Below are positions 17,318 through 31,475 of a stretch of DNA of 35,012 bases, in pieces. Both the position numbers and the translations under genes were made by a program. The notes beneath the pieces were generated by a model that searched no databases, was not told the DNA's origin, and saw only the letters and a program-made list of their open reading frames with translations. Source of the stretch: Armatimonadota bacterium. Its GTDB lineage: Bacteria > Armatimonadota > Chthonomonadetes > Chthonomonadales > Chthonomonadaceae. The stretch covers positions 1 to 35,012 of the forward strand of contig JAGWMJ010000019.1 of assembly GCA_028871815.1 (NCBI GenBank). Reading direction: 5' to 3'. Each line of letters opens with the position of its first letter. Position 1 is the stretch's first letter.

Positions 17318-17477
17318 CGCTCCACACCGGTTCGCGGAAACGTCCCAAGGGTCTTATCGCGGCACAGCGCCATCACCAAACCGTTGACGGCCATGGCCGC
17401 AAAGCGATTTAACGGGAAGCATGTTTCCGCAGCGAGCCACCATTCATCGGCGCCGGTTGGAGAGGGGGCAAAAAGCG

Positions 17478-19457
17478 ATGCAAAAAGCACCTCCGGACCG
17501 GCATGCCGACGAGCGGCGCTATGCGGCGGCTCGCAGACGCATGGGGCAGTCTGCCGCTACCATCCGCCGCCTGCCCGGCACGCAGCCGGCCGGTTTGGAT
17601 CCGGCCGCGGCCAGCGCATTCACGGGCGATTCGCAGGCGGGGATCACCGATATCACCGCGCTGCTGGAACAACTGTCGGCCGTACTCAGCCCGTTTACCG
17701 CCGCACTCATCGGCCTTGCGCCGGGGAGCGCCGCGGCCAACTTGCCGCTGCAAGCTGACGCCACCACCGATGTTGCGCTCAGCAGCAGTGTCTCTCCCCT
17801 ACCCTGGACGCTGCACCGGCCGGCTGGTACGGGTATCACCGGGGCCGAGGCGGCATTCTGGCAGGCGCAGCGCGTGGAGACTCAGCAGCACGAGGCGCAG
17901 CTTGCCGCGCAGTTTGCTACCGGGCGCCTCACGCCGGAGGCCTGGAGCGCCGAGCTGCGCGCCATGGCGCCGGAATTCGACTACGCCTCATTGGGGCTGA
18001 TGCGCCGGAGGCGCGATGCGGGGTTCATGGCGCGATGGTCGGAGGGTTATCGGCCTTCCCAGCGGATGGATCGTTCCGCGGATGCTCAGATGGAGGCCGG
18101 CGTCACCGGCGGCAGAGATGCGTCGGCCGGCCCGGCGCACGCGCTGAAGGCGCTCGGCGCTGCGATGCGCATCATAAACGACGCCGACATCGACCGGCTG
18201 AAGCAGCAGAGCCGCACCTTTGCCGAGGCCATGAAGACCATTTCGCGCGGCATGCGAGAGCTCGATCTTAGCCAGACTGCGGTCGCCCAGCGACAAATGG
18301 CTGCCGCAGTCGCGGGCATGGAGCAGCGCTACTCGGCAGAACGCGCCACGCTCCGCAGCGGATCGAGGCTGCGAACAACGGGCCTGCCTCTGCAGGAGCT
18401 TGCGGCCGCAGCGAATGATGCGCGGAATCTGGAGCAGACCTGGCTGGACGAGATCAGCGCCATGTCGCGGCTTACCTCCAGCCTCAGCGCGGGCCAGCGA
18501 GACAAGCGGTTGGCCCCGCTCAGGGCCGGCCTCTCGGCAGCCGAAGAGCACGCGTGGCTGCTGCCGCGCGAGTTTGCGGTACAGCAGTTCAACGCCAACT
18601 ATCGCAGCGTACAGGGCGCGATGGTTGATGGATCGATGCAGTTTCTGCGCGGCGGCGAACCATTTGGTCGCGCAGTCACCTCCACGGCAGACTCCGTCAC
18701 CAACCGGATTCTGCAGGCGCAGTTGCAGAAGTGGCTCGATCCGGCGGTCCGCGCGACGGCCGATCAGGTGACGGCCCTCACCGTAAACACACGGGCTCTG
18801 GGCGCGCTCACCGGCATTCTCACCGGCAGCAGCGCCGGGACGGCGTTTGCGCCGGCCGGCGCCTTCGGCGATCAAGGCACGTTTGGCCCTTCCGGCCCGT
18901 TCAGCCCAAACGGCGCGGTCACCGAGTGGTACCAGAACAGCGCATCCGAGGCGCCGGGCGGAGCCTCGCCGGCGAACGCGCCGTCGAGGGCCGCCACGGG
19001 TAAGGACCTCACCGCCGCTCTTGGCGCGTGGTCGATAGCGTCGCAAGGCGCCAGCCAGGGCGTGACGCTTGGCTCGATGGCCGGCGGAGCCGCAACCGGC
19101 CTCGGGCTGGCCGGTGCGCTGGGAGTGAGCGGCCCTGTCGGCGCCGCCATTGGGGCGGGGCTCACGTTGATCGGAGGTCTGTTTCACCACGGACCAGACC
19201 CCAGGTATCCCAGCGCATACAATGCGCCATCCGATTTTGAATACGACTTCTGGCGATACCAGGTGACGCACCACCCCTCCGCCGGGCAGCCCGCGCCCTC
19301 TCACACTGCAGCCGCCAACGCGGCACAGCACGCCATGGAACTGCACATCCACATGCCCGGCATGAAGGAGGTGGTCTCCCGCGTGATTCTCTCTCAGACC
19401 AGCTCCGCGGCGGCCAACCGCGTCAATGTGGATCTGGATACCTACACGCCGATCTAG
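17478..19457 (+). CDS. Tape-measure-like phage tail protein
   Basis: A 659-residue protein, mostly helical in the middle (about 100-350, rich in Gln, Ala, Arg and Glu). A Gly/Ala hydrophobic segment of membrane type lies near residues 525-575 (GVTLGSMAGGAATGLGLAG onward). The C-terminal domain ends in ELHIHMPGMKEVVSRVILSQ. Long helices with a hydrophobic Gly-rich stretch and a short beta C-terminus are typical of tail tape-measure proteins, and the next gene is hub-like, which fits that order. It is shorter than most tape measures, so any tail would be short. The start is the ATG at 17478 after GGAGAGGGGG; the upstream in-frame ATG at 17421 lacks a site. The identity is an inference from shape and neighbours. 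Confidence 0.5.
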   Translation: MQKAPPDRHADERRYAAARRRMGQSAATIRRLPGTQPAGLDPAAASAFTGDSQAGITDITALLEQLSAVLSPFTAALIGLAPGSAAANLPLQADATTDVALSSSVSPLPWTLHRPAGTGITGAEAAFWQAQRVETQQHEAQLAAQFATGRLTPEAWSAELRAMAPEFDYASLGLMRRRRDAGFMARWSEGYRPSQRMDRSADAQMEAGVTGGRDASAGPAHALKALGAAMRIINDADIDRLKQQSRTFAEAMKTISRGMRELDLSQTAVAQRQMAAAVAGMEQRYSAERATLRSGSRLRTTGLPLQELAAAANDARNLEQTWLDEISAMSRLTSSLSAGQRDKRLAPLRAGLSAAEEHAWLLPREFAVQQFNANYRSVQGAMVDGSMQFLRGGEPFGRAVTSTADSVTNRILQAQLQKWLDPAVRATADQVTALTVNTRALGALTGILTGSSAGTAFAPAGAFGDQGTFGPSGPFSPNGAVTEWYQNSASEAPGGASPANAPSRAATGKDLTAALGAWSIASQGASQGVTLGSMAGGAATGLGLAGALGVSGPVGAAIGAGLTLIGGLFHHGPDPRYPSAYNAPSDFEYDFWRYQVTHHPSAGQPAPSHTAAANAAQHAMELHIHMPGMKEVVSRVILSQTSSAAANRVNVDLDTYTPI

Positions 19458-19481
19458 TCGGCGCAGAGGAGGCGGCAGCCG

Positions 19482-21995
19482 ATGCCGGGATACGGCGACT
19501 CAACTCCGGCCGGCACGGCCGATTCCACCTCCGATCCGCTGCTGCTCCCGGGCACCGGGATCACCGGCATCACCACGAGCATGACCGCGCTTGCCATGCG
19601 AGTCCACCGGAAGTCATCACCCGCATCCGGCTCTCCACCAAATGAGGGAGAGCTCTGGTACCTGGATGCGGCTGGTGGTGGCTGGATGCTGCTGCCGGTG
19701 CAGCCCGTCTTCACCGGCGCGATGGCGCCTACCATCTCGCGCGCCTTTCGCGAAGTTTCCACGCTGCAGTTCGCCCTGCAGGATGACGCCACCGGCAGCC
19801 TGGCGCCGGAAAACCGAAACTCGCCGTGGAACTACGACTCGGCCGCAGCCTGGTCGCCGCTGCTGGATGAGGCCCGACCGGTGCTGCTCCGCGCAGGGGC
19901 ATGGTGCTGGTTCAATGCCGCGGCCGGCATCGCGCCCTCCTCCACGCTGCCCCCGGCAAACGGCACCAGCCTCTCATCGCTCACAGACGGCACGCTCGGC
20001 GATATCAGCGTCAGCAGCGCCGGGTTCGTCCAGTTTCAACCAACATCCGCCGCCGCGTTCTCATTGACGGTGGATCTTGGCACTGTTCAGCGCCTGGAGC
20101 ACGCGGTTCTCCGGTTCGGTTCGCGCACCACCGGTGGCTGGGCCACCCTCCCAGCCGGCGCCGAGCTGCTGGTCTCCACCGATGGCGCTGCCTGGCAGCC
20201 TGCGTTTGCAACGCCTCGACCGCTGGGCGGCAACGGCTTCGGCGCCGGCGGAGATTGGGATGATGATCGCGATGGCAGGCAGGTTGAGGTTGCGTTTGTC
20301 GACGCCGGTCTGCCCGCCCGGTATGTGCAGTTTGAAATAACGCCAACGGGCGCGCAAACGATCTTCGTCGACCAACTTGCCATCTACACCTCAAGCCAGG
20401 GCGGCTCCGTATTGGGGTTCAACCAGTTTTGCGGCTATCTCGGTGATGGCGTGGACGCGCTGAACAGCGGACTGATCGTTGTGCAGGCTACCGATGTGCT
20501 GAAGCGCCTGGCCGATATGAACAGCGTGATGGTGACGCGGGCCTACTACCGCTGGGAGCTGGCCGACATTCTGTATGACCTGCTGACCAGCGCCAGTTAC
20601 TGGCGTGGCACGGGCGCCGGATACAATGCGCCCTTCCCGCCATCCGGGATCAACTGGACCAACGGCGTCCAGTTCACCGGCTACCAGGTCCCCGTCTGGC
20701 AGGGTCGCCGCAACTCGGTGCTTGGCTACGTTCAGGAGTTGGCCAGGCTCATCGGCTGGCAGGTTTGGGCCGATGGCAGCGGCGTGCTGCAGCTTACCGC
20801 GCCGCCCTGGCAGCAGCATACGCCGGACCGGCTCTGGATCGCCGCGGCCGAGGAGGGTCAGAACGACGTGCGCCGGTGCGAGCGGATCCGGGCCGGCAAG
20901 GACCTCCGCAATCGCGTGGCGCTGCAGACCAGCCAGACCAAGAACGAAGCGCTGGCCTACTCGCTCTCCGATCCCAACAGTGTGGCGGAATATGGCGAGC
21001 GCATTGTGGTGGTGACCGACAGCCTCGCGACTTCGCTTTCGCTCCAGAAGAATCTGTGCCGCGGCATCCTGCGGGACTATGCGTGGCGGGTCCAGACGCT
21101 AAACGCCACGTTAACCACAGATGCCCAGACCGTGATCCGCGGCGTCTGCGCGTTCCGCGCCGCGGCACGGCCCAATCTGTACCCGCGGGAGTGCGACCTG
21201 CCCGGCGCACTCCACCTGCGGGAGCAGTGGAGCCTCACACAGATGCAGGAGGTGATATCGGCCGGTACATGGGAGGCTGCCTGTCAGTTTGTGCCCTACC
21301 GGCAGGCGTTTCCCGAGCCGCCGCAGCTGCTCTCCGCCGTTCCGGTCAGCGGCAGCCCCGGCTCGGCAACGCTCACATGGAGCGCCATCGCCGATACCTC
21401 GGTGCAGACGCTGAACGTCTACCTCTCAACCACCACGCCCACTCCGCCGTTCCCGCGCTGCGCCACCGGCCTCTCGGCGCTGCCGGGGTCGGGCGTTGTC
21501 AGCGGGCTTTCGGCAGGCGTTCTCACCTGGGTCTATGTGACGGCTGTGGACGACTTCGGAAGCGAGAGCCTGCCGGGCAATGTGGTCGGTTTTACACCTG
21601 GCGGCAGCTCGGGTTCGGCATCGCCTGGAGGGGTGACCAACCTGACGGCACAGTTGATCCGCACGGATACTTTCGGCATCAGCTTTGCCTATGGCTTCCA
21701 GATCCAGTTCACGGCGCCACCAGCCGGTATCTGCCGTTTGGAGCCGGTCTGGTATCCCGGCGCCGCGCCGAGCCAGCCCACCGATGTGAACAACTGGTAC
21801 AGCATGCCGGCGCAGAGCAACGGCCAGTACTATGCCGGCGGCGCCGCGGCCACGCTCTACCCACGATTCGCGTGCGACACCGACTACACCGGCATGAACA
21901 TCGCCGTCGCTGTTTTCACAACGCCGATCACCGCCATGGGGTTGTTGGAGAGCAACGTGGTTGCGGTTCCGATTCCCTCGATACCATGGCCGTAA
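19482..21995 (+). CDS. Tail hub/tip-like structural protein with discoidin-like and FN3-like domains
   Basis: An 837-residue protein starting 24 bases after the tape-measure-like gene. Residues about 165-305 resemble an F5/8-type C (discoidin) carbohydrate-binding sandwich (FSLTVDLGTVQRLEHAVLRF, ARYVQFEITPTGAQTIFVDQ). Residues 310-620 resemble phage hub/baseplate proteins of the gpD/gp27 type: ADILYDLLTSASYW, NSVLGYVQELARLIGWQVW, IRAGKDLRNRVAL. Residues 625-715 look like a fibronectin type III domain (SATLTWSAIADTSVQTLNVY onward), with a further beta-rich tail. The combination suggests the tip of a tail with a built-in sugar-binding module for host or surface recognition. The exact hub class is uncertain. 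Confidence 0.55.
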   Translation: MPGYGDSTPAGTADSTSDPLLLPGTGITGITTSMTALAMRVHRKSSPASGSPPNEGELWYLDAAGGGWMLLPVQPVFTGAMAPTISRAFREVSTLQFALQDDATGSLAPENRNSPWNYDSAAAWSPLLDEARPVLLRAGAWCWFNAAAGIAPSSTLPPANGTSLSSLTDGTLGDISVSSAGFVQFQPTSAAAFSLTVDLGTVQRLEHAVLRFGSRTTGGWATLPAGAELLVSTDGAAWQPAFATPRPLGGNGFGAGGDWDDDRDGRQVEVAFVDAGLPARYVQFEITPTGAQTIFVDQLAIYTSSQGGSVLGFNQFCGYLGDGVDALNSGLIVVQATDVLKRLADMNSVMVTRAYYRWELADILYDLLTSASYWRGTGAGYNAPFPPSGINWTNGVQFTGYQVPVWQGRRNSVLGYVQELARLIGWQVWADGSGVLQLTAPPWQQHTPDRLWIAAAEEGQNDVRRCERIRAGKDLRNRVALQTSQTKNEALAYSLSDPNSVAEYGERIVVVTDSLATSLSLQKNLCRGILRDYAWRVQTLNATLTTDAQTVIRGVCAFRAAARPNLYPRECDLPGALHLREQWSLTQMQEVISAGTWEAACQFVPYRQAFPEPPQLLSAVPVSGSPGSATLTWSAIADTSVQTLNVYLSTTTPTPPFPRCATGLSALPGSGVVSGLSAGVLTWVYVTAVDDFGSESLPGNVVGFTPGGSSGSASPGGVTNLTAQLIRTDTFGISFAYGFQIQFTAPPAGICRLEPVWYPGAAPSQPTDVNNWYSMPAQSNGQYYAGGAAATLYPRFACDTDYTGMNIAVAVFTTPITAMGLLESNVVAVPIPSIPWP

Positions 21996-22026
21996 CGGCG
22001 GCCCGCTTCCCCATGGAGCATGCCGA

Positions 22027-23253
22027 ATGTCATCACTGCTCAAGGCCGCCGCGGAACGCGACGCAACTGCGAGGATGCAGCGCCGCTTCTTCCAGGGTCG
22101 CGTCACCGCCGTCGACTCCATCAACTATGTGGTGCAGGTGGATGTCGGCGAGACGCTGCCCGACGGCACGCCACAGCCACTGGAGTGGCTGCCGTACGAC
22201 CCGCACGCCCGGCCATCCATCGGCGACTATGTGAACCTGGCCTACAGCACGGCGCAGGGGATGAGCGCGTTTGTCGGCAGCTTTGCGCTTGGCCAGGGCA
22301 ATGGAGATGGAAGCCTTGGCGAAGCGAATACCGTGAGCAGCCTCCAGGCGCAGGGGGCTTCCACCGCTCTGCAGGGCGCCGTGACGCTTTCGGCTTCCGG
22401 CGAGGTGACTCTGACCCAGGCGGGTCAGAACATCCAGATATCGGCGCCGCCGGCGGCATCGCCGGCCTCCACCGTGACGGACGTGGAACCTGCCGGTGTG
22501 GTCGGGGTTGCTGCCACCTACGCGCGCGAAGACCACGCTCACCGCGGCGTACGCAGTCTGCAGCATGCGGCAGATGGCGCCCTGTACGGCGATCTGCAGA
22601 TGCAGGACAGCGTTAACATCGGCATCGCAACCGTTGGCGGCGGCTTGAAGTTCACCTTCGGCGCCACCCGCCAGGTTACCACCAACACCCTGCTGACCAT
22701 GCTCGACTCGACCATCCTGGCCGGGGCAAGCGGAATCACGGTGAGCCTGCCCGACGCAACCCTGAACCAGGCGAAGCTCTACCTGATCAAGAGTGGCGGC
22801 GTCACGGACGTCACCGTCTCGGCGGCAAGCGGTCAGCAGATCGACGCTGCCACCAGCGTCACACTGGCGGCCGCATACGCCTGGCTGATCCTTCAGAGCG
22901 ACGGCGTGCAGTGGTGGATTCTGGCCCAAAGTCCCGCGGCAAACCCCGCCGGCACGCGCAAGTGGGCATTCGCATCGGCCAACGACGGCACGCGATACCT
23001 GATCCAGGCCACCGACTGCATCCTCCAGATGACGGACCATTCCACTCCGGTGGCCAATTCGGTGGAGATGCCGGCGGCCGCCGCCGCGCTGACCGGCCAG
23101 CTCTGGATGATCCACGCCGCCGGCAGCCATACGGTGGGCGTGATTGCCGCATCCGGCAGTCTGGATGGCGGCAGCAGCATTTCGATAGCAAGCGGACACA
23201 AGCGCACGCTCTACTGCGACGGCTCCAACTACTGGAGCGTCTGCGACGAGTGA
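22027..23253 (+). CDS. Baseplate spike-like protein with N-terminal OB fold
   Basis: A 408-residue protein whose first ~90 residues look like the OB-fold of gpV/gp5-type baseplate proteins (RRFFQGRVTAVDSINYVVQV, PSIGDYVNLAYS, AFVGSFALG). The remainder is beta-rich with fibre-like repeats (LLTMLDSTILAGASGITVSL, KLYLIKSGGVTDVTVSAASG), similar to phage side-fibre or collar-spike domains. The start is the ATG at 22027 following ATGGAGC; the frame is open upstream into the previous gene but that part reads like its shadow. It sits between the hub-like and fibre-like genes in a compact row. It likely tips or caps the tail tube. Confidence 0.55.
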   Translation: MSSLLKAAAERDATARMQRRFFQGRVTAVDSINYVVQVDVGETLPDGTPQPLEWLPYDPHARPSIGDYVNLAYSTAQGMSAFVGSFALGQGNGDGSLGEANTVSSLQAQGASTALQGAVTLSASGEVTLTQAGQNIQISAPPAASPASTVTDVEPAGVVGVAATYAREDHAHRGVRSLQHAADGALYGDLQMQDSVNIGIATVGGGLKFTFGATRQVTTNTLLTMLDSTILAGASGITVSLPDATLNQAKLYLIKSGGVTDVTVSAASGQQIDAATSVTLAAAYAWLILQSDGVQWWILAQSPAANPAGTRKWAFASANDGTRYLIQATDCILQMTDHSTPVANSVEMPAAAAALTGQLWMIHAAGSHTVGVIAASGSLDGGSSISIASGHKRTLYCDGSNYWSVCDE

Positions 23254-23267
23254 CCTGAGGAGCTTCC

Positions 23268-24275
23268 TTGGCAAATAACACGGTTCTGAATCCGGGCAGT
23301 GGCGGCGATACGCTGGTCACCGAAGACGTTGGCGGCGGCGTGAAGATCGCCGCGGGAAAGCTGCACACCGGCGCGGCCGGCGCCGACGGTGGCCCCGTGA
23401 CGCTGGGCAATCCGCTGGCGGTACAACTCTCGAACGGCGCGGGAGCTTACGGTACGCCCAGCTCGCCGATTTCCGTTACGGTGGGCGATTTCCCCACCAC
23501 ACAGGCGGTTACCGCCGCCGCAGGCGCCGAGGCCGACGGCCACAGCGCGACGCTTGGATTTACATCCGACGGCGCCTGGAGCGGTTCCGGTTCCGGCACG
23601 GCGATCGCGGTTCTGAAGGCGGTATGGCAGCGGCTGCGAGGCGGCCAGCAGGCGATGGCCGTCAGCCTGCCGGTGGCGATTGCCTCCGATCAACCGGCGC
23701 TGCCGGTATCTGCAGCGACGCTGCCGCTTCCTGCCGGCGCGGCCCAGGACGGCGCGGATGCAACGGGCGTCTCCGCGCCGCCAGGAGCCTCCGGGCTGCG
23801 CGGCTGGCTGAGCGGGATCTACAAGCTGCTCAGCGGGTCGATCGCGGCATCCGGCTCCATACCGGTCGGTTCCGTCGCGTCCGGTTACCCGGTGCTCGCC
23901 GGCGGCAGCGATGGCGCCAACGTGAGGATGCTCTACGTGACCGCGGCCGGTTACATCGGCACCTACGCGCAGCAGCGAGCCAGCGTCGGCAGCCAGGGCA
24001 ACCTGTGGAACGCCGCTGTGGTCGGAGCAGGCGGCACATCGGCCCTCGTGAACGTTATCAACGGCCAGCCGCTGGTCAGCATCTTCGGCAATGCATCCTC
24101 CGCCACTACCATCACCATCTACTTCAGCGCCGACCTGGTGCACTTCTACAACACCGGAACCACCATAGCGGCAAACGGTGACTTTGCGCTGACGCTGCAG
24201 ACCGGCGCCTTCTACCTGCGCCTGGTAAGCAGCAGCGCGTGCACCATCACGGCAACGGCCACCGGAAAGGTATAG
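23268..24275 (+). CDS. Phage tail fibre-like / structural protein
   Basis: A 335-residue protein, strongly enriched in Gly, Ala, Ser and Thr with few charged residues, as in tail-fibre or collar proteins. It opens ANNTVLNPGSGGDTLVTED, a style common for phage proteins that bind through GDTV-like motifs. The C-terminal half has short strand repeats (VSIFGNASSATTITIYFSA). The start is TTG at 23268, chosen because TGAGGAG (23256-23262) lies just upstream and no ATG fits. The gap to the spike-like gene is 14 bases. No enzymatic motif is seen. Function as a fibre or adhesin is inferred. Confidence 0.5.
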   Translation: MANNTVLNPGSGGDTLVTEDVGGGVKIAAGKLHTGAAGADGGPVTLGNPLAVQLSNGAGAYGTPSSPISVTVGDFPTTQAVTAAAGAEADGHSATLGFTSDGAWSGSGSGTAIAVLKAVWQRLRGGQQAMAVSLPVAIASDQPALPVSAATLPLPAGAAQDGADATGVSAPPGASGLRGWLSGIYKLLSGSIAASGSIPVGSVASGYPVLAGGSDGANVRMLYVTAAGYIGTYAQQRASVGSQGNLWNAAVVGAGGTSALVNVINGQPLVSIFGNASSATTITIYFSADLVHFYNTGTTIAANGDFALTLQTGAFYLRLVSSSACTITATATGKV

Positions 24276-24280
24276 CGCTT

Positions 24281-24547
24281 ATGAACTACAGCACCGTTAT
24301 CGCGGGCGCAGCGTACGACACATCCACGGCTTCGCAAACCGGCGCGGCCATCACCGACTCGCTCGGTACGCCGGTAACGCTGTTCCTCACGCCGGAAAAC
24401 AACTGGTTTCTGCTGCAGGTGGGCCGGCCGCAGGATGGTGGCTGGTGGCAGATCGTTCCGATGGCGCCGGCGGACGCGTGGACGTTTCTGGCGAACAGCC
24501 AGCCGTCGGTCTGCGCGCAGGCTTTTCCAGCCGGCCAGCCGGCCTAG
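24281..24547 (+). CDS. Small tail-cassette protein
   Basis: An 88-residue product starting with an ATG at 24281, five bases after the previous stop. It begins MNYSTVIAGAAYDTSTASQ and contains VTLFLTPENNWFLLQVG and QIVPMAPADAWTFL, a compact aromatic-rich beta pattern. No family is recognised. Its place between fibre-like and lysis-like genes suggests a small structural or accessory phage protein. Confidence 0.5.
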   Translation: MNYSTVIAGAAYDTSTASQTGAAITDSLGTPVTLFLTPENNWFLLQVGRPQDGGWWQIVPMAPADAWTFLANSQPSVCAQAFPAGQPA

Positions 24548-24651
24548 ACCCACATTCCGCACCGGCGCGGGCCAGCCGGAGGCGATGCGTTCGTGGCCCA
24601 ACACCCTTCCCGGCTGCCGGTTTCGGCGGCCTCTTCCGTTCCGGAGACTTT

Positions 24652-24927
24652 ATGACAAATCTCAACATCACGCACATCATCGCGCTGGCGGCCGGCGCGC
24701 TTCTGGCCCACCTTTCACAGCGCAGCGCCCGCGACGCCGCCGACCAGGCGATCAGCTGGCTGTTCCACCGCCCGCTCCACGTGCCGGCGGCCTCGGCGCA
24801 GAAGCTGGAGACCATCCTCCGTGCGCCTTCCGGCGTGGTCGGCGATGTGGAGGACCTGATCGCGCGCGCGGCCGCGGCGGCGGCGGATGCCGCCATCGCA
24901 CGCATCACGCCGCCCCGAGGAGCCTGA
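24652..24927 (+). CDS. Small holin-like candidate
   Basis: A 91-residue protein with one hydrophobic N-terminal segment (ITHIIALAAGALLAHL) followed by helices rich in Ala (ARAAAAAADAAIARI). It starts at the ATG at 24652 after CCGGAGAC. Position just before an XhlA-like protein and an endolysin suggests a holin or lysis accessory. Only one membrane segment is seen, so a class III holin or spanin-like role cannot be told apart. Confidence 0.4.
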   Translation: MTNLNITHIIALAAGALLAHLSQRSARDAADQAISWLFHRPLHVPAASAQKLETILRAPSGVVGDVEDLIARAAAAAADAAIARITPPRGA

Positions 24928-24932
24928 CAGCC

Positions 24933-25208
24933 ATGACACGCAACGGAGCAGCGGCCGCTCCACCAACCGGACAGGACGGAGGAGCGGCCTGGTTCTGGCG
25001 CGAGATTCTGCGCGAGGTTCACAAGCTGGGCGCTCAGTTGAGCGACGTCTGCGCGCGCTGCGCCGCCATCGAGACGCGACTCGACGCCATGGAGCGCGAC
25101 GTGCAGCGGCGGGCCATCCAGATGCGCTGGCTGGTTGGCCTGGCGGCTACCGGCGGCTGCATGATGGCAGCCGCGCTGGCGCCGCTGCTGCTGCGGATGG
25201 TTCGCTGA
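24933..25208 (+). CDS. XhlA-like membrane protein of a lysis cassette
   Basis: A 91-residue protein with a soluble N-terminal part, a heptad-rich helix (REVHKLGAQLSDVCARCAAI, ETRLDAMERDVQRR) and one C-terminal membrane segment (MRWLVGLAATGGCMMAAALA). A coiled coil plus a single C-terminal membrane segment is the layout of haemolysin XhlA-type proteins found beside phage holins and endolysins. It starts 5 bases after the preceding gene and ends 21 bases before the endolysin, supporting one lysis operon. Confidence 0.5.
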   Translation: MTRNGAAAAPPTGQDGGAAWFWREILREVHKLGAQLSDVCARCAAIETRLDAMERDVQRRAIQMRWLVGLAATGGCMMAAALAPLLLRMVR

Positions 25209-25229
25209 TTTCAACTAGAAGGAGGAGCG

Positions 25230-25688
25230 ATGCAAGGAGATATCGGGGCCGCGGTTGCGGCCGTGGCCGAGCGTTACGTGGGTATTCGCGAGATTCCGGC
25301 CGGCAGCAACCGGGGTGAGCACATTGACCGCTGGAACCGGGAGGTCGGAAACCCCATCGGCAGCCCGTGGTGCGCGGCGTTTGCCTGCTGCGCCGCGCGT
25401 GAAGCCGGCGTGGAACACGGTCCCTGGACGGGCAGCAGCGGCGAAGTGGCGAACTGGGGCGAGCGGACCGGCAGCGGCGTCTCAGGCGGCGACGTATGCG
25501 CAGGCTGCCTCGGCGCCGTCATCAACCCGGAGACAGCCACCGGCCACTGCCACACCGTGGTGGCCGTCTCCGGCCCGGATTCCGATGGCGTCATCGACAC
25601 CGTGGAGGGAAACGAAGGCAACGCCGTAAGGCGCAACCGCCGTCACGCCGATACCGTTGACTGGGTTGTACCGTGGGGACCGGAGTAA
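25230..25688 (+). CDS. CHAP-type endolysin / peptidoglycan amidase
   Basis: A 152-residue cysteine amidase/peptidase of the CHAP type. The probable nucleophile is Cys in GSPWCAAFACCAAREAG. The catalytic His lies in GHCHTVVAVSG and a late polar strand in DTVEGNEGNAVRRN, all in the usual order. It likely cuts peptidoglycan peptide bonds. It has no signal peptide, as expected for a holin-released phage endolysin. A good site (AAGGAGGAG, about 25219-25227) precedes the ATG. It is the last gene of the tail-like block. No separate cell-wall-binding domain is present. Confidence 0.75.
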   Translation: MQGDIGAAVAAVAERYVGIREIPAGSNRGEHIDRWNREVGNPIGSPWCAAFACCAAREAGVEHGPWTGSSGEVANWGERTGSGVSGGDVCAGCLGAVINPETATGHCHTVVAVSGPDSDGVIDTVEGNEGNAVRRNRRHADTVDWVVPWGPE

Positions 25689-26783: not shown

Positions 26784-27515
26784 ATGATGAGACCCAGAAC
26801 ATTCAGTGCGCTAGTACGTGCTGGCGGCCCGGAGCGATTTGTCCGTGAGGCGTCCGAACGAGCTGCCCGGCTCGAGCGTGAACACTGGCTTAAGACACTC
26901 GAAGCCGAGGCATTACGCCAATGCGGGAAAGAAGCGGAAATATGCGCCACGTACCTCGACGGTCTGCGGCGCAAGCTCAATTCAACTCGTGCTGACGTCG
27001 CTCCTCGCGAGGATAGACGTGGCCGAGTGCAACGGCTGCACGCGCTTGGGGTTTGGGGGGAACACAAGGCCGTCGCATTGCTAAAGCGAGCAGGTTTCAG
27101 CGATGTATGCGAACTCAATGCGCAGTTTCCTAATCATCAGTTCGCTGACATTCTGGCAGAGCGCGACGGGAAGAAATATCTAATTGGCGTAAAGACTCGC
27201 AACAAATATCAAGCGAGCGGCCGATTAAACCCGACATACAACATAAGAAAGAAAGAAGCAGATATCCAAGCTCTTGCGGATAGGCATGAAGCCGTTCTTG
27301 CTTGGGTGGCTATCTCTGTCGTCCCTGAGCAACAGAAGTTCAGCGCGTATTTCGGCACGATAGACGAAATCCAATCGAGCGGAGAACGATTCTCTATTCC
27401 GATGACGCCGGAACACACAGCGAGGTATGATCGCCTGTCTTGCCCGCTGGAAGAAACTGATTCGTCGATTGAGCCGGATTGGACAAACGGCGGCAATGCG
27501 AACCGACCGGAATAA
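26784..27515 (+). CDS. PD-(D/E)xK-like nuclease-fold protein, possibly inactive
   Basis: A 243-residue protein with a helical, charged N-terminal third (FVREASERAARLEREHWLKT) and a central domain (about 90-200) like the restriction-endonuclease fold. The order is GVWGEHKAVALLKRAGF, then HQFADILAERDGKKYLIGVK followed by TRNKYQ. In active PD-(D/E)xK enzymes the last strand reads ExK; here it is GVK, so a metal-binding acid may be missing or displaced. The start is the ATG at 26784 after AAAGGG. No methyltransferase or helicase is adjacent, so a classical restriction system is not supported. Lower GC than its neighbours and the island setting suggest transfer. Confidence 0.5.
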   Translation: MMRPRTFSALVRAGGPERFVREASERAARLEREHWLKTLEAEALRQCGKEAEICATYLDGLRRKLNSTRADVAPREDRRGRVQRLHALGVWGEHKAVALLKRAGFSDVCELNAQFPNHQFADILAERDGKKYLIGVKTRNKYQASGRLNPTYNIRKKEADIQALADRHEAVLAWVAISVVPEQQKFSAYFGTIDEIQSSGERFSIPMTPEHTARYDRLSCPLEETDSSIEPDWTNGGNANRPE

Positions 27516-28480: not shown

Positions 28481-29545
28481 CTAGACCGTACCAAGGATCT
28501 CGTCCAAGTCGATGCCGTCCTCCATACCCGTGACTGACCTGCACTGCCAGGTGGTAGTGCGAGCTCGAATTGTCGCAGTTTTGGAAAGGAGCTCGGCCGC
28601 GACTGCGCCGCGCGAGTACTGCGCGTTCTCAACTTTTGCCGCGAATGCCATAGCCGCATCAGGGGCACAGTCCCAGTGCTTGAGTGTGAACGCGCAGAGC
28701 GTTTCTGAGTTTTCCTCACTCAGAGCCCGAATGAGCCGCGGCAGGATGTCCGCCGGGTCAATGGACGCGGAAAGATCGGCACCCTGTACGGCCCGGACCA
28801 CGGCACGATTGATGTTGTCGTCCGTGACGTACGTCCAGAATTCCCGCCCGATGGCGGGGCCCAACATGTCGAGTGCTAGTGCCTCAAAGTCGGTCACAGC
28901 CGGATTCGTATCGTAGATCTTTGAGAGGTTCTCCCAGGCCCGGGGCGTGGCTGTTGTGGTATCCCGCTGCGGGGGCTGCATGAGATAGGAGGGGTTTGAA
29001 CCCACGAATCCCATGATCCGGGTCCAGATACCGCTCGCGTCGGCCCACATGAGGAAATCCTCTGCGTTGGGTTCCAGGCGGGCTACGACCCCGAACTTGC
29101 TATAGACCCCAGAGGGAATCGCGCAAGCTCCCGCCCCATCCTCGGGGTGGGGGCCAGCCGCCACTATGATGACGGAGTCCGGCAGAGTCCTGCCGTTTAC
29201 CGTGCGGCCCCACAGCCACGACGAATGAGCCGCCTGGACGCTCGGAGCCGCGTGAGAGAAATGATCCCAGAACCATATGGTTGCGGGAGAGACCGGCGCT
29301 GACAGGACTTCAGCGGTTTCAGCGAATGGCACGACACGGGCCCCGGTGGCAGCTACGACGGGCATTCCGTTCGCGTCCACGATGTGTTCTATCCTCGGAT
29401 GGGAGACGATGAGGTTGCTCCCCGACTCCTCAGCCGCCTGCTTGACAGCAGCCGTCTTACCGACCCCGGAGGGTCCCTGTATTAAAGCAGACCGTCCAAA
29501 TCGGACGCATTCCTTGACGAGGCGTACGACCTCTAGGTACCGCAT
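28481..29545 (-). CDS. MoxR-like AAA ATPase with altered catalytic residues
   Basis: A 354-residue protein of the MoxR/AAA_5 type. Walker A is intact (GPSGVGKT, residues about 24-31). The Walker B region reads TIWFWDHFSHAAPSVQAA, where family members have a DE pair before the PxVQ helix; here Glu is replaced by His. Sensor 1, normally Asn in AAGNPxED, reads AAGPHPEDGAGA. ATP binding is plausible, hydrolysis doubtful. MoxR ATPases act as chaperones for VWA or metallopeptidase partners, and the broken gene downstream is such a partner. The start is the ATG at 29545 with AAGG about ten bases upstream. A strong consensus promoter lies about 150 bases upstream. An island or phage origin is likely. 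Confidence 0.75.
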   Translation of the reverse strand: MRYLEVVRLVKECVRFGRSALIQGPSGVGKTAAVKQAAEESGSNLIVSHPRIEHIVDANGMPVVAATGARVVPFAETAEVLSAPVSPATIWFWDHFSHAAPSVQAAHSSWLWGRTVNGRTLPDSVIIVAAGPHPEDGAGACAIPSGVYSKFGVVARLEPNAEDFLMWADASGIWTRIMGFVGSNPSYLMQPPQRDTTTATPRAWENLSKIYDTNPAVTDFEALALDMLGPAIGREFWTYVTDDNINRAVVRAVQGADLSASIDPADILPRLIRALSEENSETLCAFTLKHWDCAPDAAMAFAAKVENAQYSRGAVAAELLSKTATIRARTTTWQCRSVTGMEDGIDLDEILGTV

Positions 29546-29702: not shown

Positions 29703-29732
29703 ATTATATCATCTTGCTATATATCTTGTCAA
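29703..29732 (-). promoter_or_regulatory. Consensus sigma-70 promoter for the MoxR-like gene
   Basis: On the minus strand TTGACA (29732-29727) is followed by 18 bases and TATAAT (29708-29703). Both hexamers match the consensus exactly. The predicted start near 29696 leaves a ~150-base leader before the ATG at 29545. Confidence 0.8.
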
Positions 29733-29778: not shown

Positions 29779-30151
29779 GTGGCTGGCACGGCAGCACGAG
29801 CAGTCCCGTTGCAGAATGTGGAGGAAGTTGAGAAGGAACTGCTTGCCAGGCCTAACGGGGGTCGTGAATGCGGTCTACTCGGCAATTAACTGGGTACCAC
29901 GGCTGGCCCCGGCGACCAACGACCTTGAGCCTACCGAAGAGAAAGTCCTCCATTAGGCGGTTGCCGTTATCGCCGGACTCAAGCGGCCCGTGACGGCTAT
30001 CAAGGCCTTGTGTCTGCAGGATGAGCGGACGTGGAATGACAAGAAGTATGGCGGCGAGGGAACCGACTGGGTCTCGCCAGAGCAAGCCCAGGTCGCGAAG
30101 CAGTTGGTCGCCACAGTGCGAATGTATGAACCGCTACTCGGAATAGACTGA
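29779..30151 (+). pseudogene. Fragmented unknown gene
   Basis: Three successive pieces on the plus strand read like one protein. A GTG at 29779 opens a piece containing AVPLQNVEEVEKELLARPNG, stopped at 29887. A shifted frame gives VVNAVYSAINWVPRLAPATN and EKVLH, stopped by TAG at 29954. The same frame resumes with AVAVIAGLKRPVTAIKALCL, then DERTWNDKKYGGEGTDWVSP and VAKQLVATVRMYEPLLGID, ending at TGA 30149-30151. The last piece has the best coding look. I do not recognise the family. A frameshift plus an amber codon suggest decay; a suppressed stop is possible but not supported. Confidence 0.4.
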
Positions 30152-30174
30152 GCATCATATCGGCGCGGGATCGG

Positions 30175-30216
30175 GACTATGCCGCCGTACAGGTCCTTCT
30201 ACACGACGGCATAGTC
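30175..30216. repeat. Inverted repeat between the gene remnant and the CRISPR array
   Basis: GACTATGCCG (30175-30184) is exactly complementary to CGGCATAGTC (30207-30216) across 22 bases. It lies 36 bases beyond the distal repeat of the array and 24 bases after the gene remnant. It could end transcription from either side, but no T-run follows. Confidence 0.55.
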
Positions 30217-30251
30217 GTGTCTGGCCGAGGATTTAACCCGACGCGCCCGGG

Positions 30252-30485
30252 GTTGTATCACAGACCCGATTCCCGGCAGACCCTAGCGCCATCGCGTCGA
30301 ACTGGACGGTATACCCGATTGTATCACAGACCCAATTCCCGGCAGACCCTAGCCTAAAACCTAATAATGGCAAGCGGTCGATCATTGTATCACAGGCCCA
30401 ATTCCCGGCAGACCCTAGCATAGCGAAAAAGGTGCGATAATCCTCATTGATTGTATCACAGGCCCAATTCCCGGCAGACCCTAGC
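30252..30485 (-). CRISPR. Small CRISPR array, 4 repeats of 36 bp and 3 spacers of 30 bp, no cas genes seen
   Basis: Repeats at 30252-30287, 30318-30353, 30384-30419 and 30450-30485 alternate with three unrelated 30-bp spacers (exact 66-bp period). On the minus strand each repeat starts GCTAGGGTCTGCC and ends TGTGATACAAT. The two right-hand repeats are identical, the next differs at one base, and the left-most differs at further positions including the last base. Decay at one end marks that as the old end, so the array is read right to left. The 36/30 sizes and the TACAAT end resemble type II-C arrays such as that of Neisseria, where each repeat carries its own promoter; TGATACAAT matches an extended -10. 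No Cas9, Cas1 or Cas2 gene is found in this window. Confidence 0.85.
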
Positions 30486-30496
30486 ACGCTCACGCA

Positions 30497-31075
30497 TCAA
30501 ATAGGAAGTACTCTTGTAATGGTGAATTCTCGAGTGTAGGAAAAGAAGGGGCGATTTAACTGTCCTATAGAGACGTCTCCTATGCAGGTACCGAAGGGAC
30601 GATTAAACTGTGCTATAGAGTCTGAATACAGGCGACGCGCCAGCACATCATTTTCAAGGCGACTAAAGCCTGAATCAGCCATCCAGGCGTCATAGTCGGA
30701 ATGGCCAAGATTGAATTCGTGCATTCCAATTGCTACCATCGCTCCCCAGAGTTGTCTGCGAGACATCTTGTGTATTATCCTGTAGTAGACGCAATTGAAG
30801 CGCGCCGCCGTACGCCCGGAATCCTTTGTCGGACCCGTCATGAAATCGTATAGAAAAGCCTTACTTTTTTCAAAGTTCCTCAGGCGCTTGGCCCGACTCA
30901 GCAGAATAGGATTCTCTTCCGTACGGAGTGAGCGCGCCCACTTCATGAAGTCACTTCCCGTCTTTGCAAGGTGGTAGACCCCAATATTCACGTAATCCGG
31001 GAGAAACCGCACGTATAGCCAGAGCCGTTTCACCTTCCGCAAGACCGGTTCCAGCTTTCGCGTGAGTCGTTTCAT
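30497..31075 (-). CDS. Basic protein of unknown function directly upstream of the CRISPR array
   Basis: A 192-residue product ending 11 bases before the first CRISPR repeat and read in the same direction. It starts MKRLTRKLEPVLRKVKRLWL, highly basic, followed by YHLAKTGSDFMKWARSLR, then KAFLYDFMTGPTKDSGR and VYYRIIHKMSRRQLWGAM, rich in Arg, Lys and aromatics. The C-terminal ~40 residues contain two similar segments (SIAQFNRPF and SIGQLNRPF) encoded by a 28-bp DNA repeat. I chose the ATG at 31075; a TTG at 31117 would encode the degenerate CRISPR-like repeat. There is no ribosome site, but a TACAAT six bases upstream could give a leaderless message. It does not resemble any Cas protein I know. 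Base composition is lower in GC than the flanking chromosome. Confidence 0.5.
   Translation of the reverse strand: MKRLTRKLEPVLRKVKRLWLYVRFLPDYVNIGVYHLAKTGSDFMKWARSLRTEENPILLSRAKRLRNFEKSKAFLYDFMTGPTKDSGRTAARFNCVYYRIIHKMSRRQLWGAMVAIGMHEFNLGHSDYDAWMADSGFSRLENDVLARRLYSDSIAQFNRPFGTCIGDVSIGQLNRPFFSYTREFTITRVLPI
30545..30620. repeat. Imperfect 28-bp direct repeat, two copies 48 bp apart
   Basis: Copies at 30545-30572 and 30593-30620 share GAAGGG, CGATT, AAACTGT/TAACTGT and CTATAGAG and differ at about four positions. The repeat spacing is a multiple of three, so the gene on the minus strand encodes a duplicated SIxQxNRPF. It may be a duplicated coding segment or a DNA site close to the leader of the array. 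Confidence 0.6.
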
Positions 31076-31081
31076 CTTTCG

Positions 31082-31116
31082 ATTGTACCGCATGCCCAAT
31101 TCCGGCAGACTCCACA
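31082..31116 (+). repeat. Degenerate CRISPR-like repeat; possible tracrRNA anti-repeat
   Basis: The plus strand reads ATTGTA, then six unlike bases, then GCCCAATTCC, GGCAGAC and a divergent end. It matches the plus-strand form of the array repeat except for the internal block, one deleted C and the last bases. It lies 596 bases from the array. A transcript to the right from here would pair with the crRNA repeat over GCCCAATT and CAGAC with a central bulge, as anti-repeats of type II tracrRNAs do. A GGAAGG hairpin (loop nine, CCTTCC) follows at 31159-31179. No promoter or T-run terminator was recognised. It may instead be a stray repeat used as promoter by the unknown gene. Confidence 0.55.
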
Positions 31117-31370
31117 AACGCTAGGTTCCTATAGACCCCCCGCCCGCGCGGCGCAAACGGAAGGCTGCGTGGACCTTCCGGGCCCGCGTGGTCGTGCCAG
31201 GTGACGCGCCATCGACCCATCTATCTGTGCCGCCGGGAGTCGGCGGAGCGCGCCAGGCCCGACACTTAGGCAGCAGTCGAGCCGCCGGTTCGGCGTCTGG
31301 GGTTCGCACATTGAGTCGGCTCCGGGTCGGATTCATACCACTCGAAGCCCGATGCCGGAGATTGCCGGGC

Positions 31371-31475
31371 TCAATGATGGATGAGGAAACCGAGCCGCGC
31401 TCCAGCCAGCACCAGCCACGCAGAATTGACGCGGCCGCGGAACAGCATGGTGGCTGCAACAGTGGCTATCAATTG
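31371..31475 (-). pseudogene. 3' remnant resembling a chromate transporter
   Basis: The minus strand encodes QLIATVAATMLFRGRVNSAW followed by LVLAGARLGFL and a TGA at 31371. This resembles the last membrane segments of ChrA-type chromate transporters (xRxxVNxAWLxLxGAxLGxL). Nothing upstream on this strand continues it, so only the tail is left. The rest of 31117-31693 shows no gene. The match is short and remembered from family pattern, so it is tentative. Confidence 0.35.

Follow-up and report, generated by a model that had tools for sequence, protein, structure and literature searches.

A tiny, genuine CRISPR array occupies positions 30252-30485 of the window, which is one whole contig (C19, 35,012 bp). 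It is probably an orphan array with type II-C-like repeats, its cas genes lost or absent, left as a relic in a lower-G+C, partly phage-derived stretch. The resemblance of its repeat to those linked with cas9 elsewhere in the phylum and the absence of cas genes above model cut-offs throughout the genome both support the original prediction of a cas-less array with II-C-like repeats. That prediction had offered three explanations (effectors encoded elsewhere, a relic, or a link to an adjacent basic protein), among which the relic fits best. The array is most likely a leftover rather than a new system, and ordinary in kind. As cas9 and cas1 were both searched for and not found, we file it as an isolated CRISPR array with a repeat of the II-C kind and not as a II-C system.

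Organization of the array

The array comprises four near-identical 36-bp repeats, starting at 30252, 30318, 30384 and 30450 (a period of exactly 66 bp), and three unique spacers of constant length (30 bp), reproducing the coordinates and spacing originally predicted. Listed along the minus strand, the crRNA direction indicated by comparison with cas9-linked repeats, repeat 1 (30450-30485) and repeat 2 (30384-30419) are identical to the consensus GCTAGGGTCTGCCGGGAATTGGGCCTGTGATACAAT, while repeat 3 (30318-30353) departs from it at one position and repeat 4 (30252-30287) at three, so that the differences from left to right on the contig are 3, 1, 0 and 0. Spacers S3 (30420-30449), S2 (30354-30383) and S1 (30288-30317) lie between them on the same strand and are unrelated to each other, with pairwise identities of 8, 4 and 9 of 30 positions. 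No match to the repeat arises in dinucleotide shuffles of the window.

On the minus strand each repeat ends in TGATACAAT or TGATACAAC, resembling the extended -10 promoter found in II-C repeats; such repeats have been reported to have promoters of their own (PMC12080349). In II-C arrays it is the first, oldest repeat that mutates (PMC12080349), whereas here the most changed copy is the last in the presumed direction, at the opposite end, although with four repeats this departure carries little weight.

Kinship of the repeat with cas9-linked repeats

Ten arrays lying next to cas9 in other members of the phylum supplied repeats for comparison, each in crRNA orientation. The window repeat agrees with them at 180 of 360 positions (15-22 of 36 for each repeat, the best single match being L010 with 22/36), a total that none of 20,000 shuffled repeats reached (mean 92, maximum 163), while the opposite strand of the window repeat scores 119/360. 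Over the last nine bases, which include the TACAAT-like end, 70 of 90 positions match across the ten repeats. In relatives with a recognisable tracrRNA, anti-repeat and tail fix the strand, and on that basis the crRNA here is likely to be read from the minus strand. The kinship thus falls on the strand for which closeness to type II-C repeats had been predicted, and in its 36-bp length and terminal motifs the window repeat is of the II-C kind.

Arrays adjacent to cas9 in genomes of the phylum have 36-bp repeats and mostly a period of 66 bp. II-C arrays such as those of L010, L013, L026, L027 and L029 resemble the window array in their 36-bp repeats, 30-bp spacers and 66-bp period, and share with it terminal motifs (TACAAT or similar) and 15-22 of 36 repeat positions. 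They differ from it in adjoining cas9 (in L026 also cas1) and a tailed tracrRNA, whereas the window array has neither a cas gene nor a recognisable tail. For annotation this means that a short cas-less array can be typed through the cas9-linked repeats of its own phylum.

Absence of cas genes from the window and the genome

No cas gene was found among the scanned window proteins, as originally predicted, which leaves the array with cas-free flanks of 30 kb and 4.5 kb. The same holds across the genome (3.68 Mb in 22 contigs, 98.32% complete), where Cas1, Cas9, Cas12/TnpB and Cas3 are all lacking above cut-off; a genuine array with no cas gene nearby is what defines an orphan (isolated) array. 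Cas1 is absent under a model that is positive in 9 control genomes, no Cas12/TnpB was detected, and a profile made from ten of the phylum's own Cas9 proteins finds nothing in the genome at E values up to 10. One match to the Cas9 model in this genome (E 5.8e-4) was rejected as Cas9, being sub-threshold and unaccompanied by any hit of the phylum profile; in other genomes, most sub-threshold matches this strong are confined to model positions ~592-633 and are taken for HNH nucleases. Matches to the Cas3 model lie below cut-off and are read as ordinary helicases, since that model is positive in all 14 control genomes.

The search for Cas9 or Cas12 genes and for further arrays proposed with the original prediction thus yielded no effector above cut-off and no second array with the same repeat in the genome. 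Among 291 genomes of the phylum 32 carry Cas9 above cut-off, including four of family f3, which belongs to the same order, but no searched genome of f1, the family of the window. The suggestion that effectors elsewhere serve the array is disfavoured within its own genome, where no Cas1, Cas9 or Cas12/TnpB was found.

Spacer targets

Comparison of the spacers with phage and plasmid sequences, likewise proposed at the outset, gave one partial match for S1 and none for S2 or S3. Twenty bases at the presumed seed end of S1 occur in one viral contig, where the match extends to 21 of 30 contiguous bases and then stops. It lies within a Tail_completion_gp17 gene (PF11367), the shared frame reading VQFDAMA in both sequences, and is suggestive while not distinguishable from chance. 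A degenerate-codon search of the viral contigs with the S1 reading frame returned no further example, and a match to a Caballeronia plasmid (E 0.06) is weak and was treated as chance. None of the spacers has a self-target in the genome at E <= 0.001. The repeat itself was not found in the viral contigs, phages or plasmids, nor its pattern in the viral contigs and GTDB genomes.

A diverged fifth copy of the repeat

A finding new to this analysis, and far above chance, is a diverged fifth copy of the repeat on the plus strand at 31082-31110. Its sequence, ATTGTACCGCATGCCCAATTCCGGCAGAC, corresponds to the repeat with 3 mismatches, all in the first twelve bases, and one gap. Its local score is 42, whereas none of 300 Markov sequences as long as the window scored above 36 and the next best site in the window reaches 28. 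Its start lies 632 bp away from that of the closest repeat, out of register with the 66-bp period. The duplex predicted between copy and repeat, at -46.0 kcal/mol, is almost as stable as the real pairs of the relatives (-48.4 to -65.5) and makes the copy look like the anti-repeat of a tracrRNA, although any degenerate copy of the repeat would pair in this way.

The tail after the copy lacks the AAGG and nexus-like sequences that stand behind the anti-repeats of the relatives and folds no better than shuffles; 31116-31215 found no support as a tracrRNA tail. An Rfam search of 28-33 kb returned nothing near gathering scores. The fifth copy is thus a probable anti-repeat remnant, with no recognisable tail, rather than a demonstrated tracrRNA.

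The open frame beside the array

The adjacent basic protein of the original prediction is an open frame on the minus strand (30497-31117) without known relatives, one end of which overlaps the fifth copy while the other lies within 11 bp of the array. Pfam, PADLOC and NCBIfam assign it to no family, and in PHROG it has only a weak match (E 0.09). No homologue was found in the 291 phylum genomes, viral contigs, GTDB genomes, phages or plasmids, two of these scans being single-protein queries that reach close relatives only, and the DNA of 30486-31400 gives short chance-level matches only in 101 genomes. Codon usage in the first half of the frame is better than in other frames and still not above background; in the second half it is worse than in several other frames and not coding-like. 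Structure prediction for the 191 residues is unusable (pLDDT 40) and gives no fold. The frame could be a decayed gene, or not a gene in the first place. The proposed tie between array and protein thus found no support, there being no homologues and no coding-like codon usage in the second half, and membership of the frame in a CRISPR system is likewise unsupported.

Within this second half, beside the array, a ~28-bp sequence (reading CTCTATAGSACAGTTWAATCGYCCCTTC on the minus strand) can be seen by eye to occur twice, ~48 bp apart, at 30543-30620; the two copies might be paired binding sites or belong to a leader.

Origin of the array and alternative explanations

The array probably derives from a II-C locus that was lost in the lineage or that arrived as a fragment with mobile DNA, and the fifth copy at 31082-31110 is best taken for the anti-repeat left from the lost tracrRNA. 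Transcription, if it occurs, would presumably follow the minus strand, and a crRNA would be active only with Cas9, tracrRNA and RNase III from elsewhere, for which reason the array is most likely inert in the present genome. Several observations sit less easily with a relic. Decay is mild, with two repeats identical and all spacers 30 bp long, so that the loss is recent or the array has been kept. The most mutated repeat is the last, against the II-C rule, and the candidate anti-repeat has no recognisable tracrRNA tail. In an assembly of 22 contigs a cas9 in unassembled DNA is, strictly, still conceivable.

This last point is taken further if the array is functional and served by a II-C locus that the organism possesses and the assembly lacks. 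The intactness of repeats 1 and 2 is in keeping with such a locus, as are the 22 contigs and 98.32% completeness; we nevertheless consider it unlikely, as it requires both cas1 and cas9 to be missing, no second array with the same repeat is present, and the contig of the array is itself cas-free over the 30 kb and 4.5 kb at its sides. A working mini-array on a phage-like mobile element, whose guide RNAs and perhaps own tracrRNA borrow a host Cas9 against competing phages, would account for the phage-type ATPase (28481-29545), the drop in G+C, the resemblance of one spacer to part of a phage tail gene and the shortness of an array without cas genes, virus-borne mini-arrays being known (PMC6858448). 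It is rather unlikely all the same: no intact element could be delimited, the repeat is absent from the viral contigs, phages and plasmids searched, the spacer match covers 21/30 only, and Cas9 occurs in no searched f1 genome. It is quite improbable that the short II-C-like array and the nearby tracrRNA-like element form an effector-less guide-RNA module on mobile DNA that uses any Cas9 a host supplies. Were the array and the anti-repeat-like copy co-expressed, this would be an example of guide RNAs on the move in the absence of their enzyme.

The remaining readings depart further from a CRISPR relic. The fifth copy might control the frame at 30497-31117, or guide a Cas protein to it, as a regulatory or toxin-antitoxin-like unit, and the start of that frame inside or beside the fifth copy, on the strand of the array, and the TACAAT upstream of an ATG at 31072 are in line with this; the frame's lack of relatives and fold, its weak or missing coding signal and the absence of a Cas effector from the genome make it very improbable. 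The least credible reading, and one we reject, dispenses with CRISPR altogether and takes the array for a 22-residue tandem coding repeat in an 86-residue protein (30233-30493, minus strand). The frame is open and 66 is a multiple of three, but the spacers share only 4-9 of 30 bases, codon usage is not coding-like, and the repeat is kin to cas9-linked repeats. No DNA homologue occurs in 101 genomes, barring a 31-bp stretch inside an ordinary-looking gene of genome G065 (L003) that was set aside as chance. Neither of the two observations that the original prediction named as arguing against an array was made: no coding repeat with the 66-bp unit was found in homologous proteins, and the spacers are unrelated to each other.

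A cas-less orphan array has precedents. Isolated (orphan) CRISPR arrays are a known class (PMC5294841), sharing with this one diverse spacers and a 10-kb neighbourhood free of cas genes; the present array differs in that the search of the whole genome, too, found no cas gene and in having an anti-repeat-like copy in its vicinity. Cas-less mini-arrays borne by viruses have also been described (PMC6858448) and are similar in having few spacers, no cas genes and phage-type genes nearby, whereas the present array has three spacers instead of one or two, lies on a bacterial contig and not in an intact virus, has a candidate target for spacer S1 only and has no matching host system known. As an orphan, the array records past contact of the lineage, or of mobile DNA that it acquired, with a II-C system, and it does so in family f1, where the genomes searched show no Cas9 above cut-off.

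Genomic setting

The stretch around the array is lower in G+C and partly phage-derived, a setting equally compatible with arrival on mobile DNA and with the loss of a locus once resident here. Most of the window has a G+C of 0.60-0.70, but values drop to 0.54-0.55 around 26.5-28 kb and to ~0.53-0.56 around 29.5-31.5 kb. The ATPase at 28481-29545 has a strong PHROG match and distant relatives in 500 phage records, and tail-like genes lie further to its left. Weak matches to phage tail, tape-measure and endolysin-type proteins extend over 17421-25688, possibly a prophage remnant or a tail-like particle, and a frame at 26784-27515, within the lower-G+C stretch, is weakly similar to the YraN-like and NOV_C families.

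Upstream of the ATPase frame, the minus strand carries at 29703-29732 what looks like a promoter, matching the consensus at all 12 bases: TTGACA, an 18-nt gap and TATAAT, with a preceding TG. By eye, the interval 29841-30151 between the ATPase frame and the array resembles a gene in decay, interrupted by stops. A long, near-perfect hairpin at 30175-30216, 36 bp past the left end of the array, could mark the end of a transcript, although it has no T run, and the sequence 30160-30252 folds far better than its shuffles (z -3.9).
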